A stretch of 64,000 bases of DNA, taken from contig BQJR01000002.1 in NCBI GenBank assembly GCA_021604805.1, positions 704,665 through 768,664 on the forward strand. Reading direction: 5' to 3'. The notes under the pieces are model-generated. The model worked only from the letters and a program-made list of their open reading frames with translations, was not told the origin of the DNA and searched no databases. Source of the DNA: Planctomycetota bacterium. GTDB lineage: Bacteria; Planctomycetota; B15-G4. Within the stretch, counting starts at the first letter, position 1; every line of letters begins with the position of its first letter. A program made the position numbers and the translations under genes. This document shows positions 5,099 to 13,225 of the stretch, piece after piece.

Positions 5099-6259
5099 AT
5101 GAGCCAACTCACGCGCCTCACGCTGATCTTTCTCGCAGGCCTCGCGTTCGTCACCTCGTTGCACGGCGCGCTCAACCTCGGGTGGTTCGAAGAGCATCGC
5201 AACGAGCTACTCGTCGGGCACTTACCCGTCACCTGACACCTCACCTGCCCGGTGACCAGTTGGGTCACCGAACACTCACCCGAGCGCACGCTGTTCAAGA
5301 GCCGCCGCTACACGAGCTGGCCGTCCATGACCGAGGACATCTACGCCGGCAAGCTCGACGCCGCGTTCATCCTCGCGCCGCTCGCGATGGTGATGGCGCG
5401 GCAGGACACGAAGCCGGTGAAGATCGTGCACCTCGGCCACCGCGACGGCACCGCGATCGTTGTGCCCACCGAGTCCGACTACAAGAACTTCGGCGACCTC
5501 AAGGGAACGCGCATGGCGATCCCGCACCAGTTCGCCAACCAGCGCATCCTGATCGAGCGCTTGATGGACGACTACGGTTTCGCCGACGACGACATCACGA
5601 TGATCGACTACCCGCCGCCGGAGATGCCCGCCGGCCTGCGCGAGGGCAGCTTCGAGGCCTACATCGTGGGCGAACCCTTCGCCGCCAAGGCCGAAGTCGA
5701 CGGCTTCGGCCGCGTGCTCGCCTTCACCAAGGACATCTGGCCCGACTTCATCTCCTGCGTGCTGATCGTCACGCAAGACTTGATCGACACGCGGCCCGAA
5801 CTCGTGGCCGAGCTCGTGCAAGGCATCACGGCCTCGGGCAAGTGGCTCGATGAGGGCGACGAGACCCTGCTCGGCGGCTTGGTGAGCGAAGCCAACGCGC
5901 CGGTGGAAGGTTCCCGCGAAGCCGCGCGCACCGTGGTCGTTCCCGACGACTTCGGGCGCTCGCCGCGCATGCAGGCCGCGCTCATCGCCGCGCGTCGCGA
6001 GTACTTCAAGCAAGACCCCGAGCTGCTCAAGTTCGTGCTCACGCGCCCCGTGGACCGCGTGAAGTACACGAACCTCGAAGTCGCGCGCGAAGAGTTCACC
6101 GAGATCCAACGCTACGCCGAACGCCTGGGCTTCTTCAGCTTCCGCCCGGTGACCCCCGAGGACCCCTTCGGTTTCGACGACTACGCCGACGCCAGCTTCG
6201 CGCAGTCAGGCCTGTGGGACCTCCCCTTCGTGAACGACGACGGGAGCCCGCAACAATGA
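5099..6259 (+). CDS. Selenocysteine-containing ABC transporter substrate-binding protein (NrtA/SsuA-like, NMT1 family)
   Basis: The predicted 386-residue protein is read through an in-frame TGA at 5234-5236 (codon 46) as selenocysteine. Residues 1-45 hold a hydrophobic signal-anchor (LTLIFLAGLAFVTSLHGAL) and the first strand of the binding domain (ELLVGHLPVT). After the TGA the frame continues HLTCPVTSW and then the full nitrate/sulfonate-type binding domain (LDAAFILAPLAMVM, GTRMAIPHQFANQR, LREGSFEAYIVGEPFAA). The Sec sits in a U-x3-C arrangement with Cys50. A perfect stem-loop placed as a bacterial SECIS follows the TGA (5250-5270). The stop overlaps the permease ATG (ATGA). A GTG at 5252 would give a protein lacking the export signal and first strand, so I reject it. 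The ligand is unknown; nitrate, sulfonates or related small anions are typical of the family. A nonsense mutation or base error is the alternative. Confidence 0.85.
5250..5270 (+). promoter_or_regulatory. Putative bacterial SECIS element
   Basis: A perfect 8-bp stem (CGGTGACC / GGTCACCG) encloses the 5-nt loop AGTTG, with a G at the second loop base. It starts 13 nt after the in-frame TGA at 5234-5236, and the loop starts 21 nt after it. Bacterial SECIS elements sit inside the coding region directly 3' of the UGA at about this distance and have a G in the start of the apical loop, which SelB recognises. The loop falls on the codons AGT TGG; AGT is an uncommon serine codon in this GC-rich window. 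Confidence 0.75.
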
Positions 6260-7035
6260 CCGGCAAGCTGCAGACACTGCTGCTCGGCTGCGTGGGCTTC
6301 GGCCTGTTCGTCGGGTTGTGGTGGATCGCCACGCTCGGGCACTCGGTGAGCGACCCGCCGTCGCCGCCGCTCACTTTCACGGCGCTGCTCGAGATCGCGG
6401 CGTCGGGTGAGTTGTGGTCGAACACGATCGCATCGGTGTTCCGCGTGGCGTGGGGCTTCGTGCTCGCCGCCGCGGTGGGCATCCCCTTCGGCATCGCGCT
6501 GGGTTGGTACGACCCGCTGCGTCGCGCCTTCAACCCGCTCGTGCAATGCCTGCGCCCGATCAGCCCGATCGCGTGGATGCCGGTGACCGTGCTCGTGATC
6601 GGCAACGGCTACGTGCTCAATGGCGACGACGAGTCGGCCATCGCGCTCATCTTCCTGTCGAGCTTCTTCCCGATCGTGACGGCGTCGAACTCGGCGGTGA
6701 ACTCGATCGACCGCAAGTTCCTGCGCTCTTCGCAGAACTTCGGCGTGGGCGGACTCGACATGTTGCGTCGCGTGATCCTGCCGGCCGCCATGCCGCAGAT
6801 CCTCACCGGCTTGCGGCTCGCGCTCGGCATCAGCTGGGTCGTGGTCGTGGCCGCCGAGATGATCGGCGTGCAACACGGTCTCGGCTTTCAGGTGAACATC
6901 GCGCGACAACAGTTGCGCTACGACCACGTGGGCGCGGCCATGGTCGTGATCGCCGTGATCGGCTTGTTGCTCGACTCGTTCATGGCGCGGCTCGAACGCG
7001 CCACGCTCGCACGCCGCGGGATGCTCAGCCGATGA
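6256..7035 (+). CDS. ABC transporter permease (NrtB/SsuC-like)
   Basis: This 259-residue inner-membrane protein forms the channel of the nitrate/sulfonate/taurine class of importers. Several hydrophobic segments are visible, starting with LQTLLLGCVGFGLFVGLWWIA. The cytoplasmic EAA loop that contacts the ATPase reads QNFGVGGLDMLRRVILPAA, followed by the conserved LRLALGISWVVVVAAEM. The ATG at 6256 overlaps the stop codon of the selenocysteine-containing binding protein gene (ATGA), so it is translated only if ribosomes pass the TGA, or by independent initiation. Its stop overlaps a short 24-codon frame that leads to the ATPase start. Confidence 0.92.
   Translation: MTGKLQTLLLGCVGFGLFVGLWWIATLGHSVSDPPSPPLTFTALLEIAASGELWSNTIASVFRVAWGFVLAAAVGIPFGIALGWYDPLRRAFNPLVQCLRPISPIAWMPVTVLVIGNGYVLNGDDESAIALIFLSSFFPIVTASNSAVNSIDRKFLRSSQNFGVGGLDMLRRVILPAAMPQILTGLRLALGISWVVVVAAEMIGVQHGLGFQVNIARQQLRYDHVGAAMVVIAVIGLLLDSFMARLERATLARRGMLSR

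Positions 7036-7102: not shown

Positions 7103-7106
<4 letters not shown>
7032..7106 (+). CDS. 24-codon coupling mini-ORF between permease and ATPase genes
   Basis: An ATG at 7032 overlaps the permease stop (ATGA), and this frame's own TGA overlaps the ATPase ATG (ATGA), so a 24-residue reading frame exactly bridges the 67-nt gap. The predicted peptide has no recognisable domain. It may serve only to carry terminating ribosomes to the ATPase start. It could also be chance, since both overlaps come from the common ATGA pattern. Confidence 0.3.
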
Positions 7107-7900
<794 letters not shown>

Positions 7901-7906
7901 CTCGGC

Positions 7907-8953
7907 TCAGGCCGCGGGCGGCTTGCCTGTCTCGCTGAGCCACTCGAGCCTGCGCACACCGCGGCGCGCCATGCGGTCGAAGAAGAACACGCCGGCGGCG
8001 AGCACCGCGAGGCTGAACAGCACGAGCAGGGGCGTGAGCGGCACGGCGAAGAGCGCCGCGAAGAACTGCGCGCCGATGGTCGTGTAGAGCAGGCGCGCCA
8101 TGAAGTGCCGCGAGCGCGTCTTGATGAACCACGCGCCGACGGGTGCGCCTACGACCACCACCGGCGCTGCGCACCACCAGTAGTCCCAGGCCTCGGCGGA
8201 TAGCGGAGCGCTGCCGAAGTTGCCCTGCCACAGCGCGCCGACGAGCGCGTTGCCGCCCATCAGCACCACCGATGTCGGCGTGGCCACGCTCTCGCAGATG
8301 CGCAAGCGCAGCACGAGCAACGAGAAGGTCGCGATGTCGAGGCCGCTGCCGGTGATGCTCGAGATCACGCCGCCGACCACGCCCGTGCCGAGCAGCAGCA
8401 GCGCGTGTCGCGGAAGGAAGTGCGTGATGCCCAGGTGCACCTCGCGCTCGCGGTAGCGGTTGATCCAGTACAGCGCGAAAGCGAACGCGAGCCAGGTGCT
8501 CGTGAAGAGCATCTTGGCGTGGTCCGGCGGCAGCAAGGGCGCGATGAACTCGAGCCCGAGGATCACACCGGCGGCGCCGCCGAGGCTGGCCCACACGAGC
8601 GCGTGCGACACGATGCGCACGCGCAACGCGAAGATCGTGATCGACGCCGCCGTCATGCCCACCGACTGGATCATCAGCGAGAAGTCGCGCGCGACGTCGG
8701 GCGCGATGTCGAAGCCCAGCGTCATCACGGGGAACGCGACGGCGCCGCCACCCTCGCTCGTGGCGCCGGCGACAAACGAGCCGAACACCATCGTGACCGA
8801 CATGAACCAGTTGTCGGCGAACAGGCCCCAACGCGCGCCCGACTGCATCAGCGCGGTCCACACCGCCCACACTACGAGCGCGACGATCAGCGGCACCCAG
8901 CACGCGAAGCCCGGCAAGACCTCGGGCGGCGACGATGTCTTGGAGGGGCTCAT
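7907..8953 (-). CDS. TauE/SafE-family membrane permease
   Basis: The 348-residue protein has about eight to ten hydrophobic segments and the glycine-rich repeats of the TauE/SafE (DUF81) family (MVFGSFVAGATSEGGGAV, VVGGVISSITGSGLD). Family members are proposed exporters of sulfite, sulfoacetate and other small organic anions. The gene is convergent with the ABC operon and lies downstream of the box genes but beyond a terminator-like hairpin (9073-9106), so it is probably transcribed separately. The substrate cannot be told from sequence. The ATG at 8953 was preferred to an upstream start at 9073 because the extra residues look non-coding. Confidence 0.85.
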   Translation of the reverse strand: MSPSKTSSPPEVLPGFACWVPLIVALVVWAVWTALMQSGARWGLFADNWFMSVTMVFGSFVAGATSEGGGAVAFPVMTLGFDIAPDVARDFSLMIQSVGMTAASITIFALRVRIVSHALVWASLGGAAGVILGLEFIAPLLPPDHAKMLFTSTWLAFAFALYWINRYREREVHLGITHFLPRHALLLLGTGVVGGVISSITGSGLDIATFSLLVLRLRICESVATPTSVVLMGGNALVGALWQGNFGSAPLSAEAWDYWWCAAPVVVVGAPVGAWFIKTRSRHFMARLLYTTIGAQFFAALFAVPLTPLLVLFSLAVLAAGVFFFDRMARRGVRRLEWLSETGKPPAA

Positions 8954-9072
8954 GGCAGGCGTCGGATCATCGACGCTCGCACCGCGCCGACTCAAGCGCG
9001 TTCGTCGTCGACGTGCGCGTAGAGTTTGCGGGTCGCACTCAGAAATCACGCGCGGCGCAGGCCCGAAACGCA

Positions 9073-9106
9073 AGCGGGCGGGGCCGCGTCAACGACCCCG
9101 CCCGCT
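9073..9106 (-). terminator. Terminator-like hairpin downstream of boxB
   Basis: An 11-bp perfect stem (AGCGGGCGGGG / CCCCGCCCGCT) with a 12-nt loop lies 28 nt after the boxB stop. On the minus strand it is followed by TTGCGTTTCGG, a weak T-rich tract. It probably ends the boxC-boxB transcript. Confidence 0.65.
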
Positions 9107-9133: not shown

Positions 9134-10555
9134 TCAGAGCTTCACGTACTCGTAGTCGAAGGGCTTGCCGTTGATGCCCTTCGGCGGCTCGGCGATCCAG
9201 CCGGCGATCTTGCCGGGCTCGACGACCTGCTGCATGAGGCTCTTCACGTAGTCGCGGTCGGCTTCGCTCGGGAGCCACTCGTCCTTGCGCGCGTTCCACT
9301 GCTCTTCGGTGAGCGGGTTGCCGTCGAGGTCGAAGTGGAAGCCGGCGAAGGTGCCGATGGCGCGGTTGAAGCGGCGGTGCGGCAAGCGCAGTTCGAAGTC
9401 GGTGTCGTACTTCGCGAGGATCTTGTTCCAGTAGTTGATGCCCTTCTGGTTGTCCTCGATGAACTCTTCGCGCAGCAGCTCGTTCATCGCGTTGCGCAGC
9501 GGCACGTCGTCGGTGACGAGTTGCTTGCCGTCCCACGTGGTCACGCTCTTGGTCTGATCGAGCGCGGTGTGTTCCTCGTGGTTCTTCATCTCCCAGGCGC
9601 GGCCCTTGAGGCTGCCGCCGAAGAAGTTGGCGGAGTTGCTCGAGATCTCGGCGCCGTAGAGGTCGTTGCTGCTGCTCGCCCAGAAGTTGATGTAGCGCTG
9701 CAGCAGCGGCAGGTCGACGCCGCCCGCCTTGCGCACGGCTTCGGGATCGTTGCCGTGCTCCTTCATGAGCTGACACGCGCGCTCGACCACGCGGCCCACG
9801 CCCGTCTGCCCGACGAACATGTGGTGCGCTTCCTCGGTGAGCATGAAGCGGCAGGTGCGCGCGAGCGGATCGAAGCCCGACTCGGCCAGGCTGAGCAGTT
9901 GGAACTTGCCGTCACGGTCGGTGAACATCGTGAAGCAGAAGAAGTCGAGCCAGGTTTGGATCGGCTCGTTGAAGGTGCCCAGGATGCGCGGGTGGTCGGG
10001 GTTGCCCGAGCGGCGCTCGAGCAGCTCTTCCGACTCTTCGCGACCGTCTTTGCCGAAGTAAGTCTGCAGCAGGTAGACCATCGCCCAGAGGTGACGGCCC
10101 TCCTCCACGTTCACCTGGAACAGGTTGCGCATGTCGTAGAGGCTCGGCGCGGTGTTCGCGAGCAGGCGCTGCTGTTCCACCGACGCGGGCTCGGTGTCGG
10201 CTTGCGTGACAATGATGCGACGCAGCCAGTTGCGGTACTCGCCCGGCACTTGCTGCCACGCGTCCTCGCCCATGTGATCGCCGAAGCCGATCTTGCGGTC
10301 CTTCTCGGGCTCGGCGAGGAAGATGCCCCAACGATAGTCGGGCATCTTCACGTGACCGAACTGCGCCCAGCCGTCGCTGTCCACGGACACGGCGGTGCGC
10401 AGGTACACGTCCTTGTCGTTGAACTCGGTCGGGCCCATCTCCTTCCACCACTCGATGTAGTTGGGCAACCAATGCTCAAGCGCGCGCTGCAGGCGCTTGT
10501 CCGAGCTGAGCTCGACGTTGTTCGGGATCTTGCTGTCGTAGTCGATGCTGGCCAT
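9134..10555 (-). CDS. boxB: Benzoyl-CoA 2,3-epoxidase subunit BoxB
   Basis: BoxB is the di-iron oxygenase of the aerobic hybrid benzoate pathway; it converts benzoyl-CoA to the 2,3-epoxide with O2 and electrons from the reductase BoxA. The protein is 473 residues from the ATG at 10555, the usual family length, and starts with the typical IPNNVELS and RALEHWLPNYIEWWKEMGP. Candidate iron ligands are visible in NVEEGRHLW and TEEAHHMFVG. The gene follows boxC with a 50-nt gap and is transcribed with it. No boxA or boxD is seen in this window, so the electron donor must be encoded elsewhere. Confidence 0.95.
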   Translation of the reverse strand: MASIDYDSKIPNNVELSSDKRLQRALEHWLPNYIEWWKEMGPTEFNDKDVYLRTAVSVDSDGWAQFGHVKMPDYRWGIFLAEPEKDRKIGFGDHMGEDAWQQVPGEYRNWLRRIIVTQADTEPASVEQQRLLANTAPSLYDMRNLFQVNVEEGRHLWAMVYLLQTYFGKDGREESEELLERRSGNPDHPRILGTFNEPIQTWLDFFCFTMFTDRDGKFQLLSLAESGFDPLARTCRFMLTEEAHHMFVGQTGVGRVVERACQLMKEHGNDPEAVRKAGGVDLPLLQRYINFWASSSNDLYGAEISSNSANFFGGSLKGRAWEMKNHEEHTALDQTKSVTTWDGKQLVTDDVPLRNAMNELLREEFIEDNQKGINYWNKILAKYDTDFELRLPHRRFNRAIGTFAGFHFDLDGNPLTEEQWNARKDEWLPSEADRDYVKSLMQQVVEPGKIAGWIAEPPKGINGKPFDYEYVKL

Positions 10556-10605
10556 CGGTGGGCTCCGGTGAAGGTCGGGCGGGGCGGTCGCGCGAAGGCG
10601 CGTGT

Positions 10606-12288
10606 TCACACGCGGTCGTAGTTGATCTCGGGACGGTTGGGCGTGCCGTAACACTGCAGCGCGCCGCGTTCGCCCACGGCGTTCGGGCGTTGGAAGATCC
10701 AGTTCTGCCAAGCCGAGAGACGACCGAAGATCTTGGTCTCCATGGTCTCGGGGCCGGCGAAGCGCAGGTTGGCTTCCATGCCGGTGAGCGCGTCCGGGGA
10801 GAAGGCCACGCGTTCTTCGAGCGCGAGGCGCAGCTCGTCTTCCCAGTCGATGATGTCGGGCGCGACGGTGGCCAGGCCGAGTTCATCCGCGGTGTCGGCG
10901 TCGAAGCTGCCGGCGGCCTCGAGCACCTCTTGGACCTTCTCGGGTTCACCGAGGAAGCGCGTCTGCAAACGCGTGAGGCCGTTGCTCATCGGGTACGGCC
11001 CGCCGTTCATGGCCGACACGCCGAGCGTGACCGGGTGATCGGGATCGTTGAGCACGTAGGAGCGGTCGGCGGCCAGCGCGAGCTCGAGGAAGGTGCCGGC
11101 GAAGGCCGAGCCTTCATCCACGATGGCGAAGAAGGTGCGCGAGGTCAGGTCGACGCGCTTCAGCACGCGCTTGATGAAGTGCCGCACCTCGTTCACGAAG
11201 GGAACTTCGGTTTCGGCGGCGAGCAGCTCGTCGGTGTCGAGCGCGACCTGCGCCTCGCCACGCACGTGCAGCGTGATCGTGCCGATCTCGAGGTACTCGA
11301 GGCGCAGGTGCAACAGCGCGTCGTCGAGCTCGCGGAAGGCGCGGAAGATCCACCAGTCGGAGCCGGCGGCTTTGGCGTCGTCGGCGGTGGACGGGCCGGA
11401 CTCCTGCGGCAGGCTGAGCGTGATCGAGGCCGAGCGCGCCTTGTGATCGAGCGCCACGCGCACGTAGCGGTACACGATCGAGTCGTGCGTGAACACGGGC
11501 TCGAGACGCGCGAGTTCCACGCCGTCGGCTTCGGTGTGCTCGGGCAGCGTATCGGCGAGCTCGCGGCTGTGCTTCGCGACGGCGTCGTCGAACTTACTGA
11601 GCGGCGCCACGGCGTCGACCAGGTTCCACTTCACGGCCTTCTTACCCTTCACGCCTTCGGCCGTGGTGTTGAACAGGTCGGCGCGGTCGCGACGGATCTT
11701 GCGCTTGTCGACCATGCGCGTGAGGCCGCCGGTGCCGGGCAGCACGCCGAGCAGCGGCACCTCGGGGTGACTCACTGCAGAGTTGCGATCGTCGACCAAC
11801 AAGATGCGGTCGGCGGCGAGCGCGAGTTCGTAGCCACCGCCGCTGGCCGTGCCGTTGAGCGCGGCGAGTGTTTTGAAGCCGCCGTTCAGCGACGCATCCT
11901 CGAGCGACAGACGCGTCTCGTTCGTGTACTTGCAGAAGTTCACTTTGAAGGCGTGCGCTGAGCTGCGCAGCATCACGATGTTCGCGCCCGCGCAGAACAC
12001 GCGGTCGAGCGAACCGGTGAGCACCAGGCAGCGCACCTCGGGATGCGTGAAGCGCAACCACTGGATGGCATTGCAGAGCTCGATGTCCACGCCCAGGTCG
12101 TAGCTGTTCAGCTTGAGCTGGTAGTCGGGGCTCAGACCCTGCTCCTCCTGCACGTTCATGCGCAGGGTCGCGATGTCGCCGTCGAGCTCGAGCTGCCAGT
12201 GGACGAAGTCCGACGGGCGCAGATCGAAGTCGAGGTGGTCGGGTTGGGTGGCGGGGGCGCTGGGGGCCGCGCGGTCGGTAGCGGTCAC
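10606..12288 (-). CDS. boxC: 2,3-epoxybenzoyl-CoA dihydrolase BoxC
   Basis: BoxC, a crotonase-superfamily enzyme, hydrolytically opens the epoxide made by BoxB to give 3,4-didehydroadipyl-CoA semialdehyde and formate. The protein is 560 residues from the GTG at 12288. The first crotonase-like half holds LTGSLDRVFCAGANI and LNGTASGGGYELALAAD (oxyanion-hole regions), and a second half carries AIVDEGSAFAGTFLELALAAD. The GTG start has GAGGA eight bases upstream; residues upstream of it look non-coding. It is the first gene of the boxC-boxB unit, divergent from the BoxR-like regulator gene. Confidence 0.94.
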   Translation of the reverse strand: MTATDRAAPSAPATQPDHLDFDLRPSDFVHWQLELDGDIATLRMNVQEEQGLSPDYQLKLNSYDLGVDIELCNAIQWLRFTHPEVRCLVLTGSLDRVFCAGANIVMLRSSAHAFKVNFCKYTNETRLSLEDASLNGGFKTLAALNGTASGGGYELALAADRILLVDDRNSAVSHPEVPLLGVLPGTGGLTRMVDKRKIRRDRADLFNTTAEGVKGKKAVKWNLVDAVAPLSKFDDAVAKHSRELADTLPEHTEADGVELARLEPVFTHDSIVYRYVRVALDHKARSASITLSLPQESGPSTADDAKAAGSDWWIFRAFRELDDALLHLRLEYLEIGTITLHVRGEAQVALDTDELLAAETEVPFVNEVRHFIKRVLKRVDLTSRTFFAIVDEGSAFAGTFLELALAADRSYVLNDPDHPVTLGVSAMNGGPYPMSNGLTRLQTRFLGEPEKVQEVLEAAGSFDADTADELGLATVAPDIIDWEDELRLALEERVAFSPDALTGMEANLRFAGPETMETKIFGRLSAWQNWIFQRPNAVGERGALQCYGTPNRPEINYDRV

Positions 12289-12469
12289 GAAGTCGTCCTC
12301 GGGAGCGGGGGCTCGAGAGCCTGGGGCGGGGAAGCGCCGCTGAGACCTGAACTCGAGGCCTGCAGCTCCGTGGCGCGAGGGACAATGCAATCATAGTTCC
12401 GCCAGTCGGGCAACTCAGGCATTTTCTTTCCGGTGTGTGATAGACTGCCGCCCTCTCGCGGAGACCCCC
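12289..12469. promoter_or_regulatory. Divergent boxC / boxR control region with TGCA sites
   Basis: This 181-nt gap lies between the divergent boxC and regulator genes. On the minus strand a -10-like TATGAT (12395-12390) abuts a TGCA (12386-12389), and a second TGCA lies at 12361-12364. BzdR-type regulators are known to protect repeated TGCA sequences, so these are candidate operator sites placed to block boxC transcription. On the plus strand TAGACT (12441-12446) could be the regulator's own -10; I see no convincing -35 for either. Confidence 0.5.
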
Positions 12470-13225
12470 ATGCGCGCTGAACTCCTGCTCCACGAAGTCG
12501 GTCGACGGCTCCGCGCCGCCCGCGCCGCACGCGGCCTGAGCATGACGGAAACCGCGTCCAAGGCCGACCTGAGCACCCGCTACCTGCGCATGGCCGAGGG
12601 CGGTCAGGCAAACCTCTCGCTGCTCAAGCTCGCCGCCCTCGCGCGCGCCTTGCGCGTGCCGCTGCGCGAGCTCTGCGACCTCGACCTCAGCCAGGCGCCC
12701 ACCCTCCGGCTGGCGCTGCTCGGCGTGCGCGGCGCCGGCAAGAGCAGCGTGGGGCGCCTGCTCGCCCAGCATCTCGAGGTGCCCTTCGTGGAGCTCGATC
12801 AGCTCGTGGAAGAACGCGCGGGCACGAACCTGGCGCAGCTCTTCGCGCTGCACGGCGAACGCTTCTACCGTCAACTCCAGGCGGAGTCGCTCGAGCACTG
12901 GCTCACGCAACACGGCAGCGGCGTGCTCGCCACGGGCGGTTCACTCGTGGAAGACCTCGCCACCTACGACCGGCTGCGCGCCACCTGTCGCACGGTGTGG
13001 CTCTCGGCCTCGGCAGACACCCTCTGGCAACGCGTGGTCGACCAGGGCGACTTGCGCCCCATGCGCGATCACCCGCGCGCGCGCGCCGAGTTGCAAGCCC
13101 TGCTCGACGCCCGTCGCGAACGCTACGGCCTCGCCGACCTCGTGCTGCCCACCGACAACGTGTCCGTGCAAGCGCTCGCAGGCACGATCAACAGCTGGGC
13201 GTTGTCGGAGCAGTCGTCCGCCTGA
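12470..13225 (+). CDS. boxR: BoxR/BzdR-like regulator: HTH (XRE) plus shikimate-kinase-like domain
   Basis: The 251-residue protein joins an N-terminal Cro/CI helix-turn-helix (LRAARAARGLSMTETASKA, residues about 10-70) to a C-terminal shikimate-kinase-like domain with Walker A GVRGAGKSS and the following VPFVELDQLVEERAG. This fusion is typical of BzdR and BoxR, which repress benzoate genes until benzoyl-CoA binds the kinase-like domain. The domain still keeps the P-loop. Its place opposite boxC supports control of the box genes. The ATG at 12470 has GGAG seven bases upstream. Confidence 0.92.
   Translation: MRAELLLHEVGRRLRAARAARGLSMTETASKADLSTRYLRMAEGGQANLSLLKLAALARALRVPLRELCDLDLSQAPTLRLALLGVRGAGKSSVGRLLAQHLEVPFVELDQLVEERAGTNLAQLFALHGERFYRQLQAESLEHWLTQHGSGVLATGGSLVEDLATYDRLRATCRTVWLSASADTLWQRVVDQGDLRPMRDHPRARAELQALLDARRERYGLADLVLPTDNVSVQALAGTINSWALSEQSSA

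Follow-up and report, generated by a model that had tools for sequence, protein, structure and literature searches.

A substrate-binding protein of a planctomycete ATP-binding cassette importer with a predicted selenocysteine

The window analyzed here is a stretch of 64,000 nucleotides from a Planctomycetota bacterium (contig BQJR01000002.1, positions 704,665 to 768,664, of assembly GCA_021604805.1, which comprises 4.47 Mb in 11 contigs), and it carries the gene for a substrate-binding protein of an ATP-binding cassette (ABC) importer. Translation of 5099-6259 on the forward strand gives 45 codons, a TGA at 5234-5236 (codon 46), another 340 codons, and a terminating TGA at 6257-6259. The interrupting TGA stands in the context V-T-U-H-L-T-C, a U-x3-C arrangement in which U denotes the predicted selenocysteine (Sec). 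The gene apparently uses TGA twice, once as the predicted Sec codon and once as its own stop. An initial annotation of the window had described the same frame, open except for one TGA, and the same motif, and both descriptions were borne out by translation. The gene falls into three parts:

5099..5233, forward strand: N-terminal 45 codons, with a membrane anchor (helix 3-26), the first strand (36-41), and the start of the ligand loop, from the translation, the AlphaFold secondary structure, and the nonsynonymous to synonymous divergence (dN/dS) of orthologues
5234..5236, forward strand: in-frame TGA, predicted selenocysteine codon 46, from the translation and the TGA/Cys column in orthologue DNAs and homologues
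5237..6259, forward strand: remainder of the substrate-binding protein, including its own TGA stop at 6257-6259; PF13379 (NMT1_2) at 119.8 bits, over the gathering cut-off, and PF09084 at 51.8 bits; AlphaFold model with a predicted local distance difference test score (pLDDT) of 94.5

The first ATG, GTG, or TTG past the in-frame TGA is a GTG at 5252, which would give a product of 335 amino acids. The initial annotation expected standard gene callers to begin there; GTG 5252 is indeed the first start available, but the database entry with 100% identity to the window protein has 310 amino acids and thus starts later, at ATG 5327. A signal anchor and the first strand of the binding fold had been placed upstream of the TGA, and the AlphaFold model agrees, with the helix and strand listed above. 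By sequence family, the product is an NrtA/SsuA-like substrate-binding protein of the NrtA/CmpA/TauA class, with a predicted membrane anchor. Residue 46 is modeled between the first strand and the first helix, where proteins with this fold usually have their ligand loop, and Sec46 and Cys50 quite probably line the substrate cleft at the N-terminal end of helix 1.

Relatives carry either Cys or an in-frame TGA at this position. A protein homology search returned 1,625 homologues, and among the 120 that were listed, Cys occupies the site in all 43 that span it. The other 77 (303-347 amino acids) begin downstream of the site, as judged by their protein starts, and these starts are what a gene caller would be expected to produce after a TGA. 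The initial annotation had expected Cys at this column in homologues and proposed an alignment as a check, and the alignment agreed. At the DNA level, 392 genomes were drawn from the phylum and 25 had a match at an E value of ≤1e-60; order- and class-level searches yielded only 14 genomes, all already within that draw. One in-frame TGA was present in 19 of the 25 matching genomes (18 genus codes) and none in the other 6. For named genomes, 7 of 8 loci had TGA and one, from Aporhodopirellula, had TGC. The site was located in all 33 sequences given, and the 29 that were distinct after four duplicates were removed (window included) comprise 22 with TGA, 7 with TGC or TGT, and none with another codon. 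One TGA-type gene lies in a complete genome, that of Planctomycetes bacterium Pla86 (CP036296, L025). On a maximum-likelihood tree computed with the residue masked, at least five Sec/Cys switches are needed, and the number is the same when only the starred branches are trusted. Upstream of the TGA, 44 codons of six orthologues (window excluded) differ on average at 14.2, 9.7, and 22.7 of 44 first, second, and third codon positions, and dN is 0.26-0.48 versus a dS of 1.0-1.7 in the 6 reported of 15 pairs. Judged by these comparisons, the upstream segment evolves as protein, under purifying selection in the six orthologues, and the TGA at codon 46 is more than chance.

A candidate selenocysteine insertion sequence (SECIS), absent from the initial annotation, follows the TGA:

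5250..5270, forward strand: SECIS-like hairpin, CGGTGACC-AGTTG-GGTCACCG, with the loop at 5258-5262, from a fold of -15.1 kcal/mol, pair counts and covariation in 22 sequences, and agreement with the four bacterial SECIS (bSECIS) rules

The hairpin begins 13 bases past the TGA and has an 8-bp stem and a 5-nucleotide loop, AGUUG, that lies 21 nucleotides from the UGA. The bSECIS rules, as given in the available text of a 2026 review, are a loop of 3-9 nucleotides, a stem of 4-16 bp, a G in the first two loop positions, a UGA-to-loop distance of 16-37 nucleotides, and a minimum free energy (MFE) of ≤-7.5 (PMC13188914). The window hairpin satisfies them, with its G at loop position 2. Across the 22 TGA-type sequences, pairing holds in 95.5% of cells for the seven named stem pairs and in every sequence for the inner six, one of which is G-U in 3. 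Double-sided flips occur at two stem pairs, from C-G to G-C in 4 sequences and from G-C to C-G in 3, the latter at a pair that is open in 7 sequences; all flips are silent at the protein level. Stem covariation was 0.169. Shuffles gave 0.064, with none of 500 reaching the observed value, and slid controls did not exceed 0.055; because the sequences are related rather than independent, these figures are not probabilities. All 22 sequences have AGTTG as the loop, which fixes a Ser codon as AGT, a codon that accounts for 4 of 145 Ser codons across seven window genes (that of the binding protein included). One sequence (L050) has the same stem, yet its MFE fold differs, and Rfam at gathering thresholds gave no match in the window. 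The case for the hairpin rests on the fixed loop and the covariation: pair and loop counts separated TGA-type (Sec) from Cys-type rows of the alignment, but fold energy did not.

The genome of the window encodes the means to decode UGA. Profile searches found selA (436.9 bits), selB (330.3), and selD (267.5), as well as a tRNA-Sec (selC; 74.3 bits, anticodon TCA according to ARAGORN) 3.5 kb from selA, each above its own cut-off, so that the search for sel genes that the initial annotation had proposed turned up the full set. Close to the start of a contig, selA and tRNA-Sec are grouped within 5 kb (L018 4309-9132, G000 contig C1), and selB and selD lie elsewhere. A selA gene above cut-off was present in 18 of the 19 TGA-type genomes and in 238 of the 392 phylum genomes overall (275 at a looser E value). 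Very probably, we propose, the UGA at 5234-5236 is decoded as selenocysteine, with selenium insertion predicted from the sequences above. Taken jointly with the placement of Sec46 and Cys50 at the substrate cleft and the protein family as stated, this reading is very probable.

Two further genes complete the importer:

6256..7035, forward strand: ABC permease, whose ATG at 6256 gives a 4-base overlap with the stop of the binding-protein gene; PF00528 at 86 bits; best NCBIfam match SaoP at 140.3 bits (cut-off 295)
7103..7900, forward strand: ABC ATPase; PF00005 at 117.3 bits; best NCBIfam match SaoA at 237.6 bits (cut-off 360)

Of 32 loci of 2.8-11 kb (four duplicates among them), 31 have a permease relative, and the sole miss is a locus of 2.9 kb (L036). 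Beyond the trio of binding protein, permease, and ATPase, and shadow frames aside, nothing is common to more than 5 of 21 neighborhoods (families in 3-5 loci were partly identified), and the neighbors of the trio in the fetched loci point to no substrate. A gene of the TauE/SafE-type sulfite exporter family (7907-9073, reverse strand, 61.2 bits) is convergent with the operon in the window, and a copy 67.5% identical lies beside a Sec-type binding-protein gene in G179 (L058 3046-3972) and in no further fetched locus. A fused 4Fe-4S/NrfD protein is encoded about 4 kb or less from the binding-protein gene in G239, G358, and G292 (L069 10534-12048, L070 3913-5472, and L074 2805-4412); the best NCBIfam matches of the L070 copy, TtrB and DsrO, are both below cut-off. 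A TerC gene adjoins the Cys-type binding-protein gene in G239 (L069). In the window, genes of the aerobic benzoyl-CoA pathway adjoin the operon (9137-12390, reverse strand; 12437-13222, forward strand), with BoxB at 765.5 bits (cut-off 499.1), BoxC at 762.8 (712.3), and a shikimate-kinase-like benzoate regulator at 227.1 (204); the box genes had no match in any other fetched locus.

Several observations weigh against a Sec residue at the cleft or against the hairpin that would specify it. Block 41-50, which holds residue 46, has the lowest pLDDT of the model (mean 78). In the nearest solved structure, 3un6 (Staphylococcus aureus, zinc bound), column 46 is a His that is not established here as a zinc ligand. 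Regional fold energy was not below that of synonymous-codon shuffles (mean z of -0.35 for the 22 Sec rows and -0.12 for the 7 Cys rows), nor did its z separate the two sets (Mann-Whitney p of 0.53). As for the stem by itself, about 16% of shuffles made with window codon usage contain six Watson-Crick pairs, and the number of double-changed pairs, two, was reached in 240 of 500 shuffles. Moreover, one Cys row (L038) retains the stem, with the loop AACTG instead, and AGT is also used in 2 of the 4 Cys rows that have Ser at the loop codon. The machinery does not decide the residue, because 5 of the 6 Cys-type genomes also have selA above cut-off. Finally, no selA was detected in one TGA-type draft, G135 (84% complete), where the best tRNA-Sec match was 49.4 bits, and this genome counts against the Sec reading unless the draft is missing the genes. 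The Cys-type genome G269 (98% complete) also has no selA, with a best tRNA-Sec match of 47.9 bits; both scores are near the 48-bit side matches of the window's genome, and six other genomes score 68-77 bits.

G135 also favors an alternative in which the TGA is a true stop, either between two separate units (the 45-codon piece and the downstream open reading frame, from GTG 5252 or ATG 5327) or in a broken or mis-sequenced gene. Public gene callers treat the TGA in this way, as the 77 downstream starts among the 120 listed homologues attest. The same TGA, however, is repeated in 22 distinct genes, with 18 genus codes among 19 of the genomes, and in the complete genome of Pla86; the protein is conserved on both sides of it; the first strand of the predicted fold lies upstream; and the window's genome has Sec machinery. 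We therefore regard a true stop as very improbable. Slightly less probable still is readthrough of the UGA with another residue, whether Trp or a near-cognate insertion, and without selenium. Nothing specific favors it, Cys is the only alternative residue at the column, a tRNA-Sec with a UCA anticodon is present, and the gene itself ends in a TGA at 6257-6259, an argument against reassignment of the codon in this genome.

The main rival accepts selenium and assigns it another task: a Sec46-Cys50 selenenylsulfide would switch binding on and off, and other residues would hold the ligand. The U-x3-C arrangement suits such a switch, as does Cys50, shared by all 28 rows that span the site in alignment A1 (the window not counted), and the available text of the review judges most uncharacterized selenoproteins likely to be redox proteins (PMC13188914). 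No redox partner stands out, however, in neighborhoods where only the importer trio is widely shared, and we consider the redox switch unlikely. That the selenolate directly helps to hold a soft ligand, for example a thiophilic metal or an oxyanion that contains sulfur or selenium, is a tentative proposal, somewhat less likely than not. Slightly more doubtful is the proposal that a widespread planctomycete importer uses Sec as a substrate-gripping transport ligand and not for redox catalysis, Cys being an exchangeable version of lower affinity.

How Sec would serve transport can be outlined as follows. The genome's own SelA, SelB, SelD, and tRNA-Sec would decode the UGA, steered by the hairpin at 5250-5270. 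The N-terminal helix would anchor the protein, and cargo would sit between its two lobes, in a cleft lined by Sec46 and Cys50, the selenolate holding the ligand perhaps together with the invariant His114 and Cys220. Cargo would then be passed to the permease and ATPase for import. Selenolates surpass thiolates in acidity and nucleophilicity, and for that reason plain nitrate would be a less likely cargo than a soft metal or an anion that contains sulfur or selenium. Cys can likely substitute for Sec46, because the site switches between the two several times. Thus, Sec would tune affinity or reactivity rather than be an absolute need. If these proposals are true, an importer family is widely mis-annotated, with gene callers removing the membrane anchor and the first strand; the natural Sec/Cys switches offer a way to learn what selenium contributes to binding; and Sec-using planctomycetes would have, in transport, a reason to retain the Sec machinery.

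Sec in a solute-binding protein had been called unusual in the initial annotation, which linked it to redox- or metal-dependent ligand binding or to selenium or sulfur uptake, and any of these may apply. Few such proteins indeed appear in the available text of the 2026 catalogue, which counts 119 prokaryotic selenoprotein families or subfamilies, but its Table 1 holds precedents among ABC-importer binding proteins, namely, SaoX (UxP), SaoB (CUxxT), and BtuF (CxxU), and also lists the permease SaoP (PMC13188914). The same table has no entry with a UHLTC motif and no NitT/TauT label besides SaoX. A literature search that took in accessible parts of PMC13188914, PMC4807772, PMC9312934, PMC5029168, PMC12013277, and PMC2398784 gave no earlier report of the family; supplements and two Haft papers were outside its scope, and an earlier listing is possible. 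Supplementary table S9 of PMC4807772 covers selenoprotein candidates of two planctomycetes.

Among known proteins, the nearest in structure, 3un6, is 25% identical and differs from the window protein in its His at column 46 and in having no Cys at column 50; a literature search on it turned up only work on another protein. NrtA and CmpA (nitrate and bicarbonate) and SsuA and TauA (sulfonates) are at most 18% identical, and the matches to the NrtA and CmpA chains stop short of the N-terminal part. The SsuA family model (TIGR01728) scored 87 bits against a cut-off of 163.5. We know of no Sec-type member of the NrtA/CmpA or SsuA/TauA groups. Cys-type orthologues from Pirellulaceae are 68-69% identical (P0006 from Rhodopirellula sallentina and P0009 from Neorhodopirellula lusitana) and have C-x3-C at the site, with Cys instead of the TGA. 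In the Cys-type locus of Aporhodopirellula (L019), the permease and ATPase genes adjoin. Of the 6 inner hairpin pairs, only 3 keep Watson-Crick pairing there. The Sec-type cobalamin-binding BtuF is also an ABC-importer binding protein and is set apart by its catalogue description (cd01144, CxxU; PMC13188914). SaoX and SaoB of the Sec-assisted organometallic system (NF040735 and NF040727) are likewise ABC substrate-binding proteins with predicted Sec. Residues 78-246 of the window protein match the SaoX profile (42.7 bits, E value of 3.8e-11), and for its permease and ATPase the top NCBIfam models are SaoP and SaoA. Membership in Sao is rejected because all three scores fall far below the curated cut-offs, which are 300 bits for SaoX and the values listed above for the permease and ATPase, and the motif UHLTC differs from UxP and CUxxT as the catalogue describes them. 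Sec-type ABC binding proteins are thus already catalogued, and the window protein appears to be a variant outside the curated Sao models. The window importer may nevertheless share descent with the Sao importer and work somewhat like it.
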